DNA of 63,581 bases from assembly GCA_021647905.1 (NCBI GenBank), contig JAKITW010000007.1:1-63581 (forward strand), written 5' to 3'. The translations under genes were made by a program, and so were the position numbers. A model generated the notes under the pieces. The model was not told where the DNA came from. It did not search any database and saw only the letters and a program-made list of their open reading frames with translations. Position 1 is the stretch's first letter; the number at the start of each line of letters is the position of its first letter. Positions 36,482 to 63,581 of the stretch are shown here, piece by piece. The DNA comes from Desulfobacterales bacterium (GTDB taxonomy: Bacteria; Desulfobacterota; Desulfobulbia; Desulfobulbales; BM004).

Positions 36482-36529
36482 GCAAGATCTTGTCTTGATG
36501 GTGTAACCGGCCGGTGACCACTCATAATT

Positions 36530-36612
36530 GATGAACTGGTAACAACCCGAAAGGCTTCAAATGCCACCCAATAAAATCAACAAGTTACAACATGACACAC
36601 GTCCGTCGAGCG
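36530..36612 (+). mobile_element. Family-3 MITE, partial copy
   Basis: The left 83 bp of the 101-bp family-3 element (GATGAACTGGTAACAACCC onward) end exactly where a family-1 element begins. The family-1 copy therefore inserted into an older family-3 copy; the remaining family-3 end has been lost together with the 3' end of the family-1 copy. Confidence 0.85.
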
Positions 36613-36825
36613 GTAAGGTTTCGGTAAACCCCGTACGTTTGAGGTTGGACCGGGAAAGGGGTTTTCTTATACCGAACGGTGTAGCGGACCCTGAGCCGCA
36701 GCCGTGACGGCAAAAACGGAATTTGAAACAACTTCGGCAGGATATGCTTATGGGTTCCGAATCGCCGTTGCGGCGAAGCGAGTTCCTGCTTGATAGCCTG
36801 TTTATGAACAGCCGGCCCTTCTCAA
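36613..36825 (+). mobile_element. Family-1 IS66-like MITE, 3'-truncated copy
   Basis: The first 213 bp of the family-1 element, starting GTAAGGTTTCGGTAAACCCC, are present; the last ~63 bp, including the right terminus, are missing. The matching 8-bp duplication cannot be seen. Together with the family-3 fragment it fills most of the 384-bp gene-free gap between the radical SAM gene and pgeF. Confidence 0.88.
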
Positions 36826-40217: not shown

Positions 40218-40832
40218 ATGAACAATAACAACACGGTCTGGCACCGGGCAACGGTGACCCGGGCCCGGCGCGAGCAGGCAAACGGCCATAAAAGCGTCAA
40301 TCTCTGGTTCACCGGCCTGTCCGGCTCCGGCAAATCCACCCTGGCCCATGCCGTTGAAGAAGAACTCCATCAACGCGGCTGCCGCACCTATGTGTTTGAC
40401 GGCGACAATGTCCGGCACGGCCTCTGTTGTGACCTGGGATTCGGCGTTGAGGAGCGCCGGGAGAACATCCGCCGCATCGGTGAGATGGTCAACCTCTTTC
40501 TTGATGCCGGGGTCATCTCCCTTACCGCCTTTATCTCGCCCCTGGAAAAAGACCGGCAAAAGGTAAAAAATCTGCTCGGCCCGGGAAATTTCATCGAGAT
40601 CTTCTGTAACTGTTCCCTGGAGATCTGCGAGGCCCGGGACGTCAAGGGGCTGTACAAGAAGGCCCGGGCCGGTGAGATCAAAAATTATACCGGCATTTCC
40701 TCGCCCTATGAGGCGCCCACCGATCCGGACCTCCGGCTCGACACCGGCCGCCTGCCCCTTGGTGAGTGCGTGGCCGCGGTAATGGGCCTGCTGGAGGAAA
40801 AGGGGATTATCAAGGGTCAAACAGAATTCTAA
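40218..40832 (+). CDS. cysC: Adenylylsulfate kinase
   Basis: A 204-residue APS kinase that phosphorylates APS to PAPS. Walker A is [24 protein letters not shown] binds APS, and [24 protein letters not shown] and [11 protein letters not shown] complete the family pattern. No ATP sulfurylase gene is adjacent. The final conserved block ([15 protein letters not shown]) is intact. It is the last housekeeping gene before the defence island. Confidence 0.96.
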
Positions 40833-40921
40833 ATCGCCATGTTCTGTTCTGCCGGATAGTGGACACACGCCACTGCCCATGCGACGCCGGGAAAAGAAGT
40901 TTCCTTGATAATCCAGAACCC

Positions 40922-41827
40922 GTGGAGTTGTCAGGTTGGAAATTTGGTAAAAAACCTAACGAGATAAAAATACTTTTCGATTTCCTGGGCGCCACCTTGG
41001 CGGAATTGTATCCCGGCTCAGCTGGCGAAGTGAGGGCAATACCGTCAGATCAGTATGAACTATTCGAAAATTTAGCTGATTTGTTACCGAAACTGCCGGG
41101 GCCGCGGAAACTCGAATTGACCAAGCAGGTTTTGCAAGGCCTTGAAGAATCTGACATAAGCGTAGAAGAGTTCGTCGATGCATTCAGCAACTCTACGCCG
41201 GAGGCAGTGAAAAATATAGGGGTGGCGGCAAAGTTCGTTCAATATAAGTCCGCGTTCAACGAATTGAAAAGATTAATTCAAATCGCCGACCCAAGTGAGA
41301 CAAGATATCAAAATCATCTCCAGAGACATCCGTGGATATTCGGTAGCGAATACAGTGAACTTCTGGATCGCAGGAAATGGACCAGGGACGACAATCTGGA
41401 TTTCATGCTCCGCAGAACGGTTGACAACTACCTGGAAATCGTTGAAATAAAAACTCCGGCCACCATGCCTTTGTTTAACCATGATAAGAGCCATGATAGT
41501 TTCTATGCCTCGGCAAAACTCAGCCAGGTAATGGGGCAGGTCAATCGGTACATTGAAGAAGTCGAGCGGCATAGAGACACGATAATTGCCAAGGATCGAA
41601 TCGATCCTCTCAAGATAAGGGCAAGAATTATCATCGGCGTTGACGGCGATGAAGATCAACAAGCTGCGCTGAGGACCTTGAACTCCCATTTGCATCGGGT
41701 GGAGATCTTGACCTTCGATCAACTGCTGCGTGTGGCAAAACGAACCCTGGATATTTTTCAATCACGGATTTCCGAGGGTGAATCACACCCTGAATATGAA
41801 GAATGGGATGATGATGTGCCCTTCTGA
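40922..41827 (+). CDS. Shedu-like (DUF4263) anti-phage nuclease
   Basis: About 302 residues from the GTG at 40922. The C-terminal half matches the Shedu SduA nuclease: HPWIFGSEYSELLDRRKW, then DNLDFMLRR and YLEIVEIKTPA, giving the D...E-x-K catalytic pattern of a PD-(D/E)XK enzyme. Shedu proteins protect against phage through nuclease activity. The N-terminal ~120 residues are helical and variable, as in the family. The open frame continues upstream to 40766 into the cysC end, so the true start is unsure and the N-terminus may be truncated. First gene of the defence island. Confidence 0.8.
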   Translation: MELSGWKFGKKPNEIKILFDFLGATLAELYPGSAGEVRAIPSDQYELFENLADLLPKLPGPRKLELTKQVLQGLEESDISVEEFVDAFSNSTPEAVKNIGVAAKFVQYKSAFNELKRLIQIADPSETRYQNHLQRHPWIFGSEYSELLDRRKWTRDDNLDFMLRRTVDNYLEIVEIKTPATMPLFNHDKSHDSFYASAKLSQVMGQVNRYIEEVERHRDTIIAKDRIDPLKIRARIIIGVDGDEDQQAALRTLNSHLHRVEILTFDQLLRVAKRTLDIFQSRISEGESHPEYEEWDDDVPF

Positions 41828-42167
41828 AGTTTTTCAAGCAACAGAGTCAATCGGAGATTCAGCCCTTTTGTTTTCAAGATACGAAACAGATTGAATCAGC
41901 CTGTGGAGCGTAATTAATGAGCGATCTTCGTTATGATGAGATTGGCTACTGGTCCGAGGTCAAGCTGGACATCTTGCGGGAATACGCAAACGCCTATTCC
42001 CACATTCTTTCATCACAAAGAAATCCGTCTCTATACCACATCTATATAGATGCCTTTGCCGGCGCCGGAAAGCATATTTCAAAAAGCACCGGCGAATTTA
42101 TCCCTGGCAGCCCAGCCAATGCCCTTTTGATTGATCCGCCCTTCCGGGAATACCATTTTATAGATTT

Positions 42168-42268
42168 GTCGGTCTCGCAACAACCCGCTCGACGGACGTG
42201 ATTCGTCTTGTAACTTGTTGATTTTATTGGGTGGCATTTGAAGCCTTTCGGGTTGTTACGAGTTCATC
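42168..42268 (-). mobile_element. Family-3 MITE inserted in tcmP
   Basis: A 101-bp element with a 6-bp duplication AGATTT (42162-42167 and 42269-42274). The ends are GTCGGTCTCGCAACAACCCG and, inverted, GATGAACTCGTAACAACCCG, sharing CTCG-Y-AACAACCCG. Excision with one duplication restores the tcmP frame, confirming the boundaries. Confidence 0.92.
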
Positions 42269-42396
42269 AGATTTGAATATGCAAAAAATTGATGCGCTTG
42301 AGCAATTATCCGGAGCATGTGACGAGGTTTCTGTTTATCCGGTTGACTGCAATAATATCCTGTTGCAAAAGGTTGTTCACCGGGAGCGATACGAAG

Positions 42397-42672
42397 GTAA
42401 ACATTCAGTAAACCCCCTCCTGTCGGGAAAGGGGTCTTCTTCTACCGACGGCCGCTCCATTGAGAAGGGCCGGCTGTTCATAAACAGGCTATCAAGCAGG
42501 AACTCGCTTCGCCGCGGCGGCGATTCGGAAGCCATAAGCATATCCTGCCGAAGTCGTTTCAATTTCCGCTTTTGCCGTCACGGCTGCGGCTCAGGGTCCG
42601 CTACACCGTTCGCTATAAGAAAACCCCTTTCCCGGTCCAACCTCAAACGTACGGGGTTTACCGAAACCTTAC
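42397..42672 (-). mobile_element. Family-1 IS66-like MITE inserted in tcmP
   Basis: A 276-bp element with a perfect 8-bp duplication ATACGAAG (42389-42396 and 42673-42680). The sequence is close to copy 2 (18013-18288). Excision restores the RERYEEYKG reading frame of tcmP. Confidence 0.94.
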
Positions 42673-42881
42673 ATACGAAGAGTATAAAGGGGCTCTATGC
42701 ATTCTTGATCCCCATGGACTTCATCTTGATCGGGAAATCATGTATACTGCCGGAACAATGTGATCTATCGAGATTTTTTTAACCTTTTCGGTTGCCGATA
42801 TGAATCGCAATGTCCTGTGGCATTCGCCGGAGGGTGTTGATTTGAACGACAACACCGCTGAATAAGGAGTGAAAAAAGATC

Positions 42882-43190
42882 ATGATTGAGACCAAGCAGA
42901 ACGTTTTTCAGATGCTCGATCAGAACAGATCGCATCTGAAAGGACTAGGTGTTAAAAAAATAGGGTTGTTCGGTTCCTTTGTGCGAGGGGAACAGCGCCC
43001 GGACAGCGACATTGATTTGCTGGTCGAATTTGAACCAGGTCGAAAGACATTCGATACCTTCATGGAGCTGTCTTTCTTTCTGGAAGATGTTTTGCAGCGT
43101 AAGATTGAACTTGTCACCGTTGAATCACTCAGTCCGTATCTTGGCCCCCACATCCTCAAGGAGGTTGAGTATGCCACCCTTGCCGCTTGA
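42882..43190 (+). CDS. MNT-type nucleotidyltransferase (antitoxin of MNT/HEPN pair)
   Basis: A 102-residue minimal nucleotidyltransferase. [20 protein letters not shown] contains the GS and D-x-D catalytic motif. In known pairs, such proteins neutralise a HEPN RNase toxin, for MntA by adding AMP to it. AAGGAGT-like sequence precedes the ATG. The downstream HEPN gene starts inside its 3' end (20-base overlap), the normal arrangement. Sequence looks intact. Confidence 0.9.
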
Positions 43191-43531
43191 ATATTTTCGC
43201 CACATCCTTGATGAGATCGAATATCTGCTGGCCGAAAGTCAGAGTTTAAGCAATGAGCAGTTCCTGAAGAATGGCACACTCAGACGTGCCTTTGTGAGGA
43301 GCATTGAAATTATCGGAGAAGCTTCCAAGAAAGTGCCCGCTGAATTGAAGAATAAATATCCGACAGTGCAGTGGAAGGCCATGGCGGGCATGAGAGATCG
43401 ACTTATCCATGATTACTTCGGGGTCGACTATGACATCGTCTTGGGATGTTGTGGAAAATAAAATACCATCACTTCGCGAAGCAGTACTGGAGATCCTGGA
43501 AAAAGAATGTAATGAAACTGACGGAAAATGA
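43171..43531 (+). pseudogene. HEPN (DUF86) toxin with C-terminal frameshift
   Basis: Residues 1-90 read as a normal DUF86 HEPN protein: [31 protein letters not shown] and the RNase motif [16 protein letters not shown] (R-x4-H). At 43441 the frame shifts: the current frame ends at 43461 in LGCCGK, whereas the +1 frame from 43442 continues [22 protein letters not shown] to a stop at 43531, the expected family C-terminus. A single extra T explains this. The RNase motif is upstream of the shift, so activity may or may not survive. Confidence 0.82.
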
Positions 43532-43688
43532 AAAAAGGGATGCCATTAAGCTGAGTAAGGCGGGCAAGCCGTTGCCGGACAAGTATCGGTTCCTGTTGTT
43601 TGATGATGACCGGGAAGTGGAGTTGATCTGGAACGGCAAGACCGTTGAGGTCTGCATTTTAAAATCATTAAAAATGATGGACTCGTAA
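43512..43688 (+). pseudogene. 5' fragment of a methyltransferase-like gene
   Basis: The frame MKLTENEKRDAIKLSKAGK, then LPDKYRFLLFDDDREVELIWNGKTVEVC, matches the typical N-terminus of a family of site-specific DNA methyltransferases (from memory, not searched). It is cut off after ~54 codons; the catalytic domain is absent. The stop lies inside a family-3 element. A second degenerate copy of the same 5' end is at 45699. It overlaps the end of the frameshifted HEPN gene. Confidence 0.55.
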
Positions 43689-43776
43689 CAACCCAAAATG
43701 CTTCAAATGCCACCCAATAAAATCAACAAGTTACAACATGACACACGTCCGTCTCGCGGGTTGTTGCGAGACCGAC
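43676..43776 (+). mobile_element. Family-3 MITE upstream of AAA ATPase gene
   Basis: A 101-bp element with a 6-bp duplication AAAAAT (43670-43675 and 43777-43782). The ends are GATGGACTCGTAACAACCC and, inverted, GTCGGTCTCGCAACAACCCG. It lies 35 bp before the start of the AAA ATPase gene, whose ribosome binding site is outside the element. Confidence 0.92.
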
Positions 43777-43811
43777 AAAAATGATCACACAAAATTGATC
43801 AGGAGGTCAAT

Positions 43812-45125
43812 GTGCTCAAAAGGATAAAAATAAAAGGCTATAAGTCCCTCGTTGACCTGGAAGTTCGCCTTTGTCCCCTTTCTGTCCTCTTTGGCCCGAA
43901 TGCGGCGGGAAAAAGCAATTTCCTGGATGTATTACAGCTTTTGTCCGGAATTGTGACCAGCCGCACATTAAAGGAAGCCTTTGAGCCTCCTTATCGGGGA
44001 AAGCCCTTGGAGTCATTCTCTTTTGGACGGGACGGCATCAAGGGACTCCTAAAGAAAGAAAGCGCCTCATTCTCAATCGAAGTGGACATTGAACTCTCTC
44101 AAAGTGTGGTCGATACCGTTAATCGTCAAATACGCGAGATGAAAAGAACTAAAGCTTCTGAAAAAAATGAAGGGAGCAATAAAAATCAATCATTCGTGCG
44201 TGAAAAATCTCTCCGTTATCGTATTGAAGTGGAAATATTGCCAAAGTCAGGCTTCCTGCGTGTTGTGGATGAATATCTTGCAGCATTGAACAAACAGGGG
44301 GAAATCAGCCGGAAAAGAAGCCCGTTTTTAGAAAAAGTCAACAGACGTTTGCATCTCCGCATGGAAGGCCAGGCCCATCCGACTTATTATGACTGCTACT
44401 TGGACCACAGCATTCTATCCATGCCCCATTATCCCCCGCACTATCCTCATCTGGTTGCCGCCCGGCAGGAGCTGGCAAGCTGGTTCTTTTTTTATTTTGA
44501 ACCGCGGGAACGTATGCGGGCTTCCAATGTGGTCAAGGAAGTACGGCACATAGGTCTGATGGGGGAGGAACTGGCTTCATTTCTGAATACGCTCAAGGTG
44601 CTTGATCCCCCTCAGTTCAGGGCGGTTGAGAAGGCCCTGCATCTGGTTATTCCAAACGTCACCGGCATTGAAGTTGATGCAAATGAGTTCGGGGAAGTCG
44701 ATTTAAAGCTCATCGAAGGGGAAACACCTATTCCGGCCCGGGTTCTATCCGAAGGCACATTGCGCGTTCTGGGTTTGCTCGCCGCCATGGGAGGAGCAAA
44801 GGAACCGTCGGCTTTGCTGGGTTTTGAGGAGCCTGAAAACGGCATCCACCCAAGAAGAATCAGGATGATTGCCGATATATTAAAAAACCGTACGCTTTCA
44901 GGTGATACCCAGCTTATTGTCACCACGCATTCACCGATTTTGCCGGACATGATTGATAATGACAGCCTGTTTGTGTGCCGCAAGGAAGAAGATAGAACAA
45001 TAATCGAGTCTTTTATTACCACCTGGGGTCCGTTAGGTAGAAAAACGGACATTGACAAAGTGCTCGACAGGGAGGAGCAACCCTTGGTGTCCGAACGTAT
45101 CTTAAGAGGTGATTTTGATGCGTAG
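43812..45125 (+). CDS. AAA ATPase of the OLD/RecF-like type
   Basis: A 437-residue SMC/ABC-like ATPase. Walker A is LFGPNAAGKSNFLD (residues ~28-41). A charged insertion (about 95-190) precedes the C-terminal half with the signature-like LSEGTLRVLGLLAAM, Walker B ALLGFEEPENGIHP and the TTHSPILPDM switch. The start is GTG 43812, with AGGAGG nine bases upstream. It overlaps the TOPRIM-like gene by eight bases. An ATPase plus separate TOPRIM-like partner recalls OLD nucleases and PARIS-like systems, so an anti-phage role is inferred. Confidence 0.88.
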   Translation: MLKRIKIKGYKSLVDLEVRLCPLSVLFGPNAAGKSNFLDVLQLLSGIVTSRTLKEAFEPPYRGKPLESFSFGRDGIKGLLKKESASFSIEVDIELSQSVVDTVNRQIREMKRTKASEKNEGSNKNQSFVREKSLRYRIEVEILPKSGFLRVVDEYLAALNKQGEISRKRSPFLEKVNRRLHLRMEGQAHPTYYDCYLDHSILSMPHYPPHYPHLVAARQELASWFFFYFEPRERMRASNVVKEVRHIGLMGEELASFLNTLKVLDPPQFRAVEKALHLVIPNVTGIEVDANEFGEVDLKLIEGETPIPARVLSEGTLRVLGLLAAMGGAKEPSALLGFEEPENGIHPRRIRMIADILKNRTLSGDTQLIVTTHSPILPDMIDNDSLFVCRKEEDRTIIESFITTWGPLGRKTDIDKVLDREEQPLVSERILRGDFDA

Positions 45126-45702
45126 GATAATTTTGTTTGTCGAGGATTATGGGCACGAGGCCTTTATTACATCGGTCATTCAAAGGTTCGCAAAAGAACA
45201 AGACAAGGCGGTTAAAATCATTCCTCTTAGCGCTCGCGGAGGACACGGCAAGGCAGTTGCCGAGCTGAAGTCATATTTAAGGGAACTCCGCAATGACAGG
45301 GTTGGCTTTCCTGATCTGCTGGTAGTGGCGACAGATGCTAATTGCAGAGGATATCAGGACCGTAAAAAAGAGATAGATGACGTAACCGCTGATTTGCAGA
45401 ATATTTTAATTTCTGCCATCCCTGACCCCCATATTGAACGGTGGCTGCTTCTGGATTCCGCCGCTTTCAAATCAGTAATGGGTAAAGGGTGCGATGCGCC
45501 GGATCATAAGTGTGAACGGGGGCGCTATAAAAAAATATTAATGGATGCCATGTTGCAGGCCGGGGTCCACCCCTCTTTGGGGGGGATAGAGTTTGCGGAA
45601 GATATTGTTAATGCCATGGATTTTGAACGTATGGAGCAGGCCGATCCATCCTTGGGGCAATTCCTCAAAAGTATACGTAATAAGTTCAAGGAATGGGCAT
45701 GA
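45118..45702 (+). CDS. DUF4276-type TOPRIM-like protein
   Basis: A 194-residue partner of the AAA gene. RIILFVEDYGHEAFI supplies the TOPRIM-type glutamate and VVATDANCRGYQDR the acidic pair. IPDPHIERWLLLD is the conserved DUF4276 segment. ATG 45118 is preferred over GTG 45109 because AGAGGT lies seven bases upstream; it overlaps the ATPase stop. The pair probably acts as one complex, ATPase plus nuclease (inferred). The stop codon overlaps the ATG of the methyltransferase-like fragment. Confidence 0.85.
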   Translation: MRRIILFVEDYGHEAFITSVIQRFAKEQDKAVKIIPLSARGGHGKAVAELKSYLRELRNDRVGFPDLLVVATDANCRGYQDRKKEIDDVTADLQNILISAIPDPHIERWLLLDSAAFKSVMGKGCDAPDHKCERGRYKKILMDAMLQAGVHPSLGGIEFAEDIVNAMDFERMEQADPSLGQFLKSIRNKFKEWA

Positions 45703-45923
45703 AACTGACGAAAAATGAAAAAGGGACGCGATCAAACTGATTGAGGCGGGGAAGCTGCAAAAGAAGGCAACAAGGATGAATGAGATTAAGCATGGTGTCC
45801 CCGGAATTCATGTCCCCGGAATTACCGGATTGTTGAACCGGCAGGAGGAGGGGACATGCCCGCACATTCCACGCGAGGCCGGGACAAGAGAATGGCCTGT
45901 CAACTACTTGAGTTGATGGCCTA
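45699..45923 (+). pseudogene. Second degenerate copy of the methyltransferase-like 5' end
   Basis: ATGAAACTGACGAAAAATGAAAA at 45699 corresponds closely to 43512 onward. A single-base loss shifts the frame; in the corrected frame it reads MKLTKNEKRDAIKLIEAGKLQKK before similarity ends near 45750. The following sequence to 45923 contains two GTCCCCGGAATT direct repeats and no recognisable gene. The two copies bracket the ATPase-TOPRIM pair. Confidence 0.5.
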
Positions 45924-45936
45924 ACTCACCTTGCAT

Positions 45937-46581
45937 ATGCAAAAAAATGTTCATATGAGAACCATGAGAGAATCAAGGGACCGTTCAGTTCGGAATAATG
46001 TCACTAATGATCGAGTAATTCCTCTGGGAACTGGCTTGGCGGCTATTCCCGAACGCCTCCTTCTTGCGCATGCTCGTGGCGAAGTTCTCTTTATCGCTGG
46101 TGCCGGAATCTCGCAATCCGCAGATTTGCCCGACTTCCGTGATCTCGTGCTCAGAGTCTACAAGCAGCTTGACGCGGCCGTGCATGCTATCATCTCCGAC
46201 ATCCCGCGCTCAGGCTGCAATCATCTGGGCACGGACCTCGGATTGACCAATCAACAAGCCGCAGAAGTCAGGAGGTTTGTCCGTGAAGATTATGACGTCG
46301 TCTTGGGAATGCTCGAACGGCGAATAGATGGGCAGTCACATGGCAAAAGCCGCGTCAGGCAGTCAGTAGCTAATGAACTGCGTTTTCATGACGTTCAGCC
46401 AGCCCCAATTCACCGCGCATTGATGCGCCTTGCCGACCGTGGTGGAGCGGTAACGATTGTAACGACAAACTTTGACCTACTTCTTGGGGAAAGAGCCCTA
46501 CATAAAAGGAGAAGCTGCTCCATCATGGCCCCGAGTCATGCGCGGGCAGTCGCGAGGCTGCATGTGAAGCGTTCAAACTGA
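45937..46581 (+). pseudogene. SIR2-like gene, 3'-truncated
   Basis: The N-terminal half of a SIR2 NADase-type domain is clear: LFIAGAGISQSADLPDFRDLV (NAD-binding GAGxS) and VTIVTTNFDLLL (TxNFD). Immediately after, near 46490, similarity ends and the frame runs into an unrelated tail (ALHKRRSCSIM...VKRSN). SIR2 effectors in defence systems (for example Thoeris ThsA, DSR) are much longer, so this is a remnant. The start is uncertain; ATG 45937 or 45955 are both possible. Neighbourhood supports defence origin. Confidence 0.75.
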
Positions 46582-46625
46582 CGTGTAAAAACGGCACGCC
46601 GGTAAACTCTGCGTTGACGGCAATA

Positions 46626-47024
46626 ATGGATATCATGATAGATTTTGACGAACTCTGCGGTAATTTTGAGAATTGGCCGAATAGCTGGAAGGGCCTTGAA
46701 GAAGATGTTCCATACGGTGCCGGAATTCTTGTGGTGTTTCGGCCATTTATTGAACACCTCATTGCCGCAGGCTTAACAAAACGAACATTGAGAAACCATG
46801 TGAACAACCTTTGGCTCCTGGGCGGCGAAACAATACGCAAAGTAAGTCTTTATGAAGAATATGACGTCCCGGCCTTGAAGAAAATATCCGAGTGCGTTGA
46901 TGAAGAAGGAGGACCTTATTGCAAGCATCTCTACACAGAGTCAGAAATCAGGTCTTTCGATGCTACTTGTAAAAAATTGCACAAGTTCCTGAAAAACAGA
47001 AATCCGGAGCCAACAAAGGGCTGA
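46626..47024 (+). CDS. Conserved hypothetical protein
   Basis: About 132 residues, acidic, with many aromatic residues (IDFDELCGNFENWPNSWKGL). The segment FRPFIEHLIAAGLTKRTLRNHVNNLWLLGG resembles the SAM-like core-binding fold of tyrosine recombinases, but there is no catalytic domain. I recall similar ~130-residue hypothetical proteins in other proteobacteria but no function. The frame stays open upstream to about 46510, so the start is uncertain and the gene may be the 3' part of a rearranged frame joined to the SIR2 remnant. Followed by 234 bp without a gene. Confidence 0.6.
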   Translation: MDIMIDFDELCGNFENWPNSWKGLEEDVPYGAGILVVFRPFIEHLIAAGLTKRTLRNHVNNLWLLGGETIRKVSLYEEYDVPALKKISECVDEEGGPYCKHLYTESEIRSFDATCKKLHKFLKNRNPEPTKG

Positions 47025-63454: not shown

Positions 63455-63581
63455 GTAAGGTTTCGGTAAACCCCGTACGTTTGAGGTTGGACCGGGAAAG
63501 GGGTTTTCTTATACCGAACGGTGTAGCGGACCCTGAGCCGCGGCCGTGACGGCAAAAACGGAATTTGAAACAACTTCGGCA
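63455..63581 (+). mobile_element. Family-1 IS66-like MITE, cut by window end
   Basis: Starts GTAAGGTTTCGGTAAACCCC and follows the family-1 consensus to the last base of the window. The left flank GGAGTAT would be the start of its 8-bp duplication, which cannot be checked here. Confidence 0.9.

Follow-up and report, generated by a model that had tools for sequence, protein, structure and literature searches.

A TcmP-like reading frame with two MITE-like elements inside it in a Desulfobacterales bacterium

Can a broken reading frame be rebuilt precisely enough to fix the boundaries of what broke it, and can the order of the damage be read from the result? The TcmP-like reading frame at positions 41917-42865 of the window (the whole 63,581-nucleotide stretch of DNA analysed here) raises both questions, as two inserts, denoted element A and element B, lie within it. 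We hold with high confidence that this locus is a multiply damaged pseudogene of tcmP, which leads a two-gene operon with DUF5131, and that it was hit by two MITE-like elements. A and B inserted into the tcmP coding sequence, each duplicating its target (5 bp and 8 bp, respectively), and the 3′ end of tcmP together with the partner gene would have been lost through deletion or replacement beside an MNT-HepT pair.

Reconstruction of the tcmP frame

The remnant is divided into the following features, with element coordinates given further below.

41917-42167, forward strand: tcmP pseudogene segment 1, codons 1-83 plus the first two bases of codon 84; its 3′ end is the first copy of the A duplication
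42275-42396, forward strand: tcmP pseudogene segment 2; its 3′ end is the first copy of the B duplication, and it aligns without gaps with 40 relatives
42681-42865, forward strand: tcmP pseudogene segment 3, running to a TAA; homology stops near residue 178-183
42761-42763, forward strand: in-frame TGA, codon 152 of the joined frame
42866-42881, forward strand: end of the tcmP remnant; the 3′ third of tcmP and the entire DUF5131 partner gene are missing, and an MNT antitoxin gene begins at 42882

To join the segments by virtual excision in silico, we removed 42168-42274 (element A and one 5-bp duplication) and 42397-42680 (element B and one 8-bp duplication). The product is 558 nt, or exactly the 186 in-frame codons that the initial annotation had predicted, counting the terminal TAA and including a single internal TGA. 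Both junction peptides quoted there, FIDL-NMQKIDALEQL and RERYE-EYKGALCILDPHGLHLD, are found in the joined translation.

Against the NCBIfam profile for the three-Cys-motif partner TcmP (TIGR04474), the joined protein scores 121.9 bits (E = 4.4e-35), exceeding the curated cut-off of 53 bits, with joined-protein residues 11-171 matching profile positions 1-172 of 263. Segment 1 alone reaches 70.8 bits (E = 1.7e-19) and segment 3 alone 28.1 bits (E = 1.8e-06, profile 130-172 of 263). The match ends at position 172 and does not span the full-length domain; judged from its sequence, the joined tcmP is a pseudogene remnant, not a working member of the family.

A scan of 84,980 genomes yielded 43 tcmP relatives, most of them full-length frames of about 275-283 aa, the closest being 60-68% identical. 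Segment 1 shares 63 of its 83 residues with one of these, L068. When the relatives are aligned together, the 40 usable sequences all run without a break through residues 74-94 and 113-134, the regions that contain the two junctions, and the sequence is thus continuously TcmP-like, as had been proposed. With a profile made from the aligned relatives, we scored alternative joins alongside the exact ones, which came out on top of all tested shifts at 277.2 bits; leaving both duplication copies in place gives 144 bits at A and 190 bits at B, removing nothing gives 143.3 bits, and out-of-frame joins overall fall between 143 and 191 bits. Shifting a breakpoint by 1-9 nt always lowers the score, by 5 to 12 bits where the frame is preserved and by about 87 to 134 bits otherwise. 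From these differences between exact and shifted joins we conclude that the join is beyond chance. A search for an empty site among 145 same-order relatives returned no tcmP except one distant copy (G075), which was rejected for this purpose as too diverged.

One open frame at the locus (42231-42782, 183 codons) is chimeric: it starts inside A, passes through tcmP segment 2 and crosses all of B, which is open over its full length in this frame. Such a frame could mislead gene callers.

Two abundant MITE-like families

The boundaries of both elements were set by their other copies in the same genome.

42163-42167, forward strand: target-site duplication of A, first copy, GATTT; the same five bases recur at 42270-42274
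42168-42269, forward strand: element A (family 3 of the initial annotation), 102 bp, GTCGGTCTCGCAACAACCC...GGGTTGTTACGAGTTCATCA, with imperfect terminal inverted repeats; ends set by 43 same-genome copies
42270-42274, forward strand: target-site duplication of A, second copy, GATTT, repeating 42163-42167
42389-42396, forward strand: target-site duplication of B, first copy, ATACGAAG, repeated exactly at 42673-42680
42397-42672, forward strand: element B (family 1 of the initial annotation), 276 bp, GTAAACATTCAGTAAACC...GGTTTACCGAAACCTTAC; ends set by 30 same-genome copies
42673-42680, forward strand: target-site duplication of B, second copy, ATACGAAG, an exact repeat of 42389-42396

Same-genome copies of A align with identical ends (GTCGGTCTCG...GAGTTCATCA), derived without the tcmP frame. 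Of the 39 full copies, 32 lie between exact 5-bp duplications, nearly all of which end in TT. The inverted repeats of A match at 14 of about 19 positions, as judged by eye. Copies of B likewise share identical ends (GTAAACATTC...GAAACCTTAC, in outline GTAA...TTAC), with an exact 8-bp duplication around 14 of 23 full copies. The insertions add 107 bp (A) and 284 bp (B), each 2 modulo 3, and each therefore shifts the tcmP frame. The claim that two different elements lie in tcmP with exact boundaries is thus borne out by the genome copies as well as by the profile scores. One detail required correction: a 7-bp duplication of A (AGATTTG) was rejected in favor of GATTT, as its extra A is the last base of the element plus a chance flanking match and its extra G is the first base of the element plus another. 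Since the 5-bp and 7-bp readings give an identical empty site, the joined sequence obtained by excising each element with one duplication copy stands, and only the stated length of the A duplication does not.

Searching the 2.7-Mb draft for element ends, we found 219 of the A type and 221 of the B type (0 for reversed control patterns in both cases), or about 110 copies of each. Both elements are short (102 and 276 bp) and multicopy, with defined ends, terminal inverted repeats and a target duplication of fixed length (5 bp and 8 bp). With this copy number, A and B are MITE-like, non-autonomous mobile elements. They share several features with gene-inactivating MITEs of other bacteria, such as Chunjie of Geobacter uraniireducens and MITEAba12 of Acinetobacter (PMC10969869, PMC6382973): they are short and non-coding, have inverted ends, duplicate their targets, reach copy numbers in the tens to hundreds and disrupt coding sequence. 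Unlike those elements, A and B have sequences found in no other place searched, and two families sit in one gene; both families look new. Fixing the exact ends and duplication lengths of two abundant, unannotated MITE families should aid genome annotation.

The two elements would have been mobilised in trans by a transposase, and the search for an autonomous parent covered the IS66 (PF03050) and rve (PF00665) types. The TG...CA-like ends and 5-bp duplications of A point to an integrase-type transposase, of which the genome contains none (rve). A-like ends occur in six other genomes of the class, where the loci examined hold no transposase and the similarity is terminal only; searches of phages and viral contigs found no element A. 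Element B shares an 8-bp duplication and a terminal GTAA with the IS66 family, whose inverted repeats start GTAAGCG and which generates 8-bp repeats (PMC11946415), but its ends are GTAAACATTC and GTAAGGTTTC, not GTAAGCG. As the genome has no IS66 transposase either, we do not file B under IS66. Element B is absent from the 145 relatives, from plasmids (whole-element search) and from viral contigs, and a search for B ends in 257 further genomes of the class found nothing. That each element reached about 110 copies in a genome without an IS66- or rve-type transposase could mean that an undescribed or unexpected transposase mobilises them. It seems to us unlikely, though worth stating, that such an enzyme moves A and B, as two new lineage-restricted MITE families, and that they are a major cause of defence-island erosion in this lineage. 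Gene interruption by MITEs is itself a known, ordinary process.

Because the draft is in 118 contigs, many of which end 95-127 nt inside a copy of B, one might suppose that repeats were wrongly joined into an intact tcmP during assembly. We give this very little weight: the tcmP flanks are in the correct order, the duplications are exact and sized as at other copies, and mis-joins do not generate target-site duplications. The TGA and the truncation, moreover, are independent of the repeats. The insertion of A and B into tcmP remains our preferred reading. Copies of B do fragment the draft assembly, and the family accounts for many of its contig breaks; the contig of the window itself ends 127 nt into a B copy (63455-63581), and many others begin or end within the same 95-127 nt.

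Other arrangements of the two elements were observed. At several loci (L007, L021, L028, L008 and L017), A copies lie in head-to-tail pairs that repeat every 107 bp exactly, the length of the element together with a single duplication of 5 bp. At least three B copies (L010, L026 and L047) have received A at one shared position, an ACATT close to the terminus of B (GTAAACATT), and these A copies differ, with 10, 0 and 0 changes, respectively, which suggests repeated insertion of A at a hot spot. A composite remnant lies at 36529-36825 of the window, in which A without its first 17 bp abuts B without its first 63 bp at 36613.

Further damage and the order of lesions

The insertions are not the only lesions. 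In the alignment column of the TGA at codon 152, relatives have K (17), R (14), G (4), N (2), Q (1) or E (1), thus K or R in 31 of 39. Relatives extend about 100 residues beyond the point at which homology ends, and neither their C-termini nor four of their partner proteins have a significant tblastn match in the window. The internal TGA and the short C-terminus reported initially are both real; to call the C-terminus shortened understates the damage, as some 100 residues are gone along with the partner gene. Among 41 near-invariant columns, the remnant departs from four (R128G, Y136H, W142R and V144I), with Y136H changing the DPYG motif to DPHG; relatives violate 0.77 on average and 6 at most, as L086 does. 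The ratio of codon positions 1+2 to position 3 is 0.65-0.92 in the remnant versus 0.45-0.89 in relatives. Past constraint is still visible in this pattern, indicating that decay of the whole gene is recent. The remnant would no longer yield a functional protein.

Exact removal of each element with one duplication copy restores the frame, as expected of a phase-variable defence gene whose insertions are reversible and in which precise excision switches tcmP back on. This possibility appears remote to us, given that the TGA, the truncation and the missing partner would persist after excision and that the genome has no IS66-type or rve-type transposase.

The sequence of events within the pseudogene can be read only partly, for A versus B. 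The window copy of A is identical to its family consensus, as are 25 other fetched copies, and the window copy of B differs from consensus at 4 of 276 positions (2-12 in other fetched copies). These values suggest that A landed after B, and the A insertion is probably the younger; the fetched copies were chosen for similarity to the window copy, which biases the comparison, and gene conversion could blur it. The locus had been called a dated record of decay. It does hold a relative, if biased, age signal; with no clock and with the TGA and 3′ loss unordered, it gives no calendar date.

A close contender, which we rate at slightly under an even chance, is that tcmP was already dead before the elements arrived, through loss of its 3′ third and partner or through the TGA, and that the insertions were neutral. 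The partner gene and C-terminus are indeed gone, the match of A to its consensus makes that insertion look recent, and substitutions have accumulated at the near-invariant sites R128G, Y136H and W142R. Set against this, the codon-position constraint persists, and no feature of the locus places the 3′ loss before or after B. Had neither element inserted, losing the partner gene would still have been enough to disable the two-gene system.

Damaged tcmP genes were also seen in two Nitrospirota genomes, one with a frameshift near residue 89 (L104:4001-4818) and one with an apparent internal deletion joining residue 67 to 238 (L105:4001-4279).

Partner gene, defence setting and predicted function

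On nearly every relative's contig that continues past tcmP, a partner gene starts about −17 to +36 bp from the tcmP stop and encodes a DUF5131 protein (PF07505, E about 1e-105). PADLOC lists TcmP and DUF5131 as the candidate defence system PDC-M41A/B; L068 matches PDC-M41A (E = 1.4e-74), and the partner in relatives is identified as PDC-M41B. In the Desulfobacterales genome, the MNT-HepT pair follows the remnant in place of the DUF5131 gene, and PF07505 is found neither in the window nor in the rest of the genome (98% complete), an absence that could in principle reflect the missing ~2%. The remnant is like PDC-M41A in its TIGR04474 match and its identity to relatives. It is unlike an intact M41A in its two interruptions, its internal TGA and the loss of its last third, and no M41B is adjacent; the locus is not an intact PDC-M41 system. 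The description of tcmP as a defence gene is weak, because PADLOC lists the TcmP-DUF5131 pair only as a candidate, although the remnant does sit in a defence island. The locus provides a worked case of a candidate two-gene defence system dying by insertions, nonsense mutation and partner loss, and leaves ideas on defence or transposition unchanged.

We found no Pfam model for TcmP, no sequence relative in the PDB and no study of its function among open papers. In Sinorhizobium, a tcmP gene is listed beside the phage-defence gene hna (PMC12445080).

For L068, a relative with intact TcmP, we predicted a structure (mean pLDDT 76.6, pTM 0.78). Its best match is E. coli RlmJ (Foldseek E = 5.8e-07; Z 15.6 over 212 residues, 3.3 Å rmsd, 13% identity), the 23S rRNA A2030 N6-methyltransferase, followed by other methyltransferases at Z 13. 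We therefore predict that intact TcmP is a SAM-dependent methyltransferase of class I whose fold resembles that of RlmJ. Its substrate is possibly nucleic acid, a shared fold being no proof of substrate.

The tcmP remnant lies in a defence island (40766-47024) that also encodes Shedu SduA, MNT/HepT, an AAA_21 ATPase with DUF4276 (best PADLOC matches HEC-01) and a SIR2 fragment. The HepT toxin gene beside MNT (43171-43540) has a frameshift near 43434, where the frame ends GCCGK-stop and the typical HepT C-terminus (26 residues) goes on in another frame. The match of the SIR2-like frame (45931-46581) to Dsr1, a protein of 1275 aa, is confined to the ~130 residues at the N-terminus, and the frame is thus an apparent defence-gene fragment.
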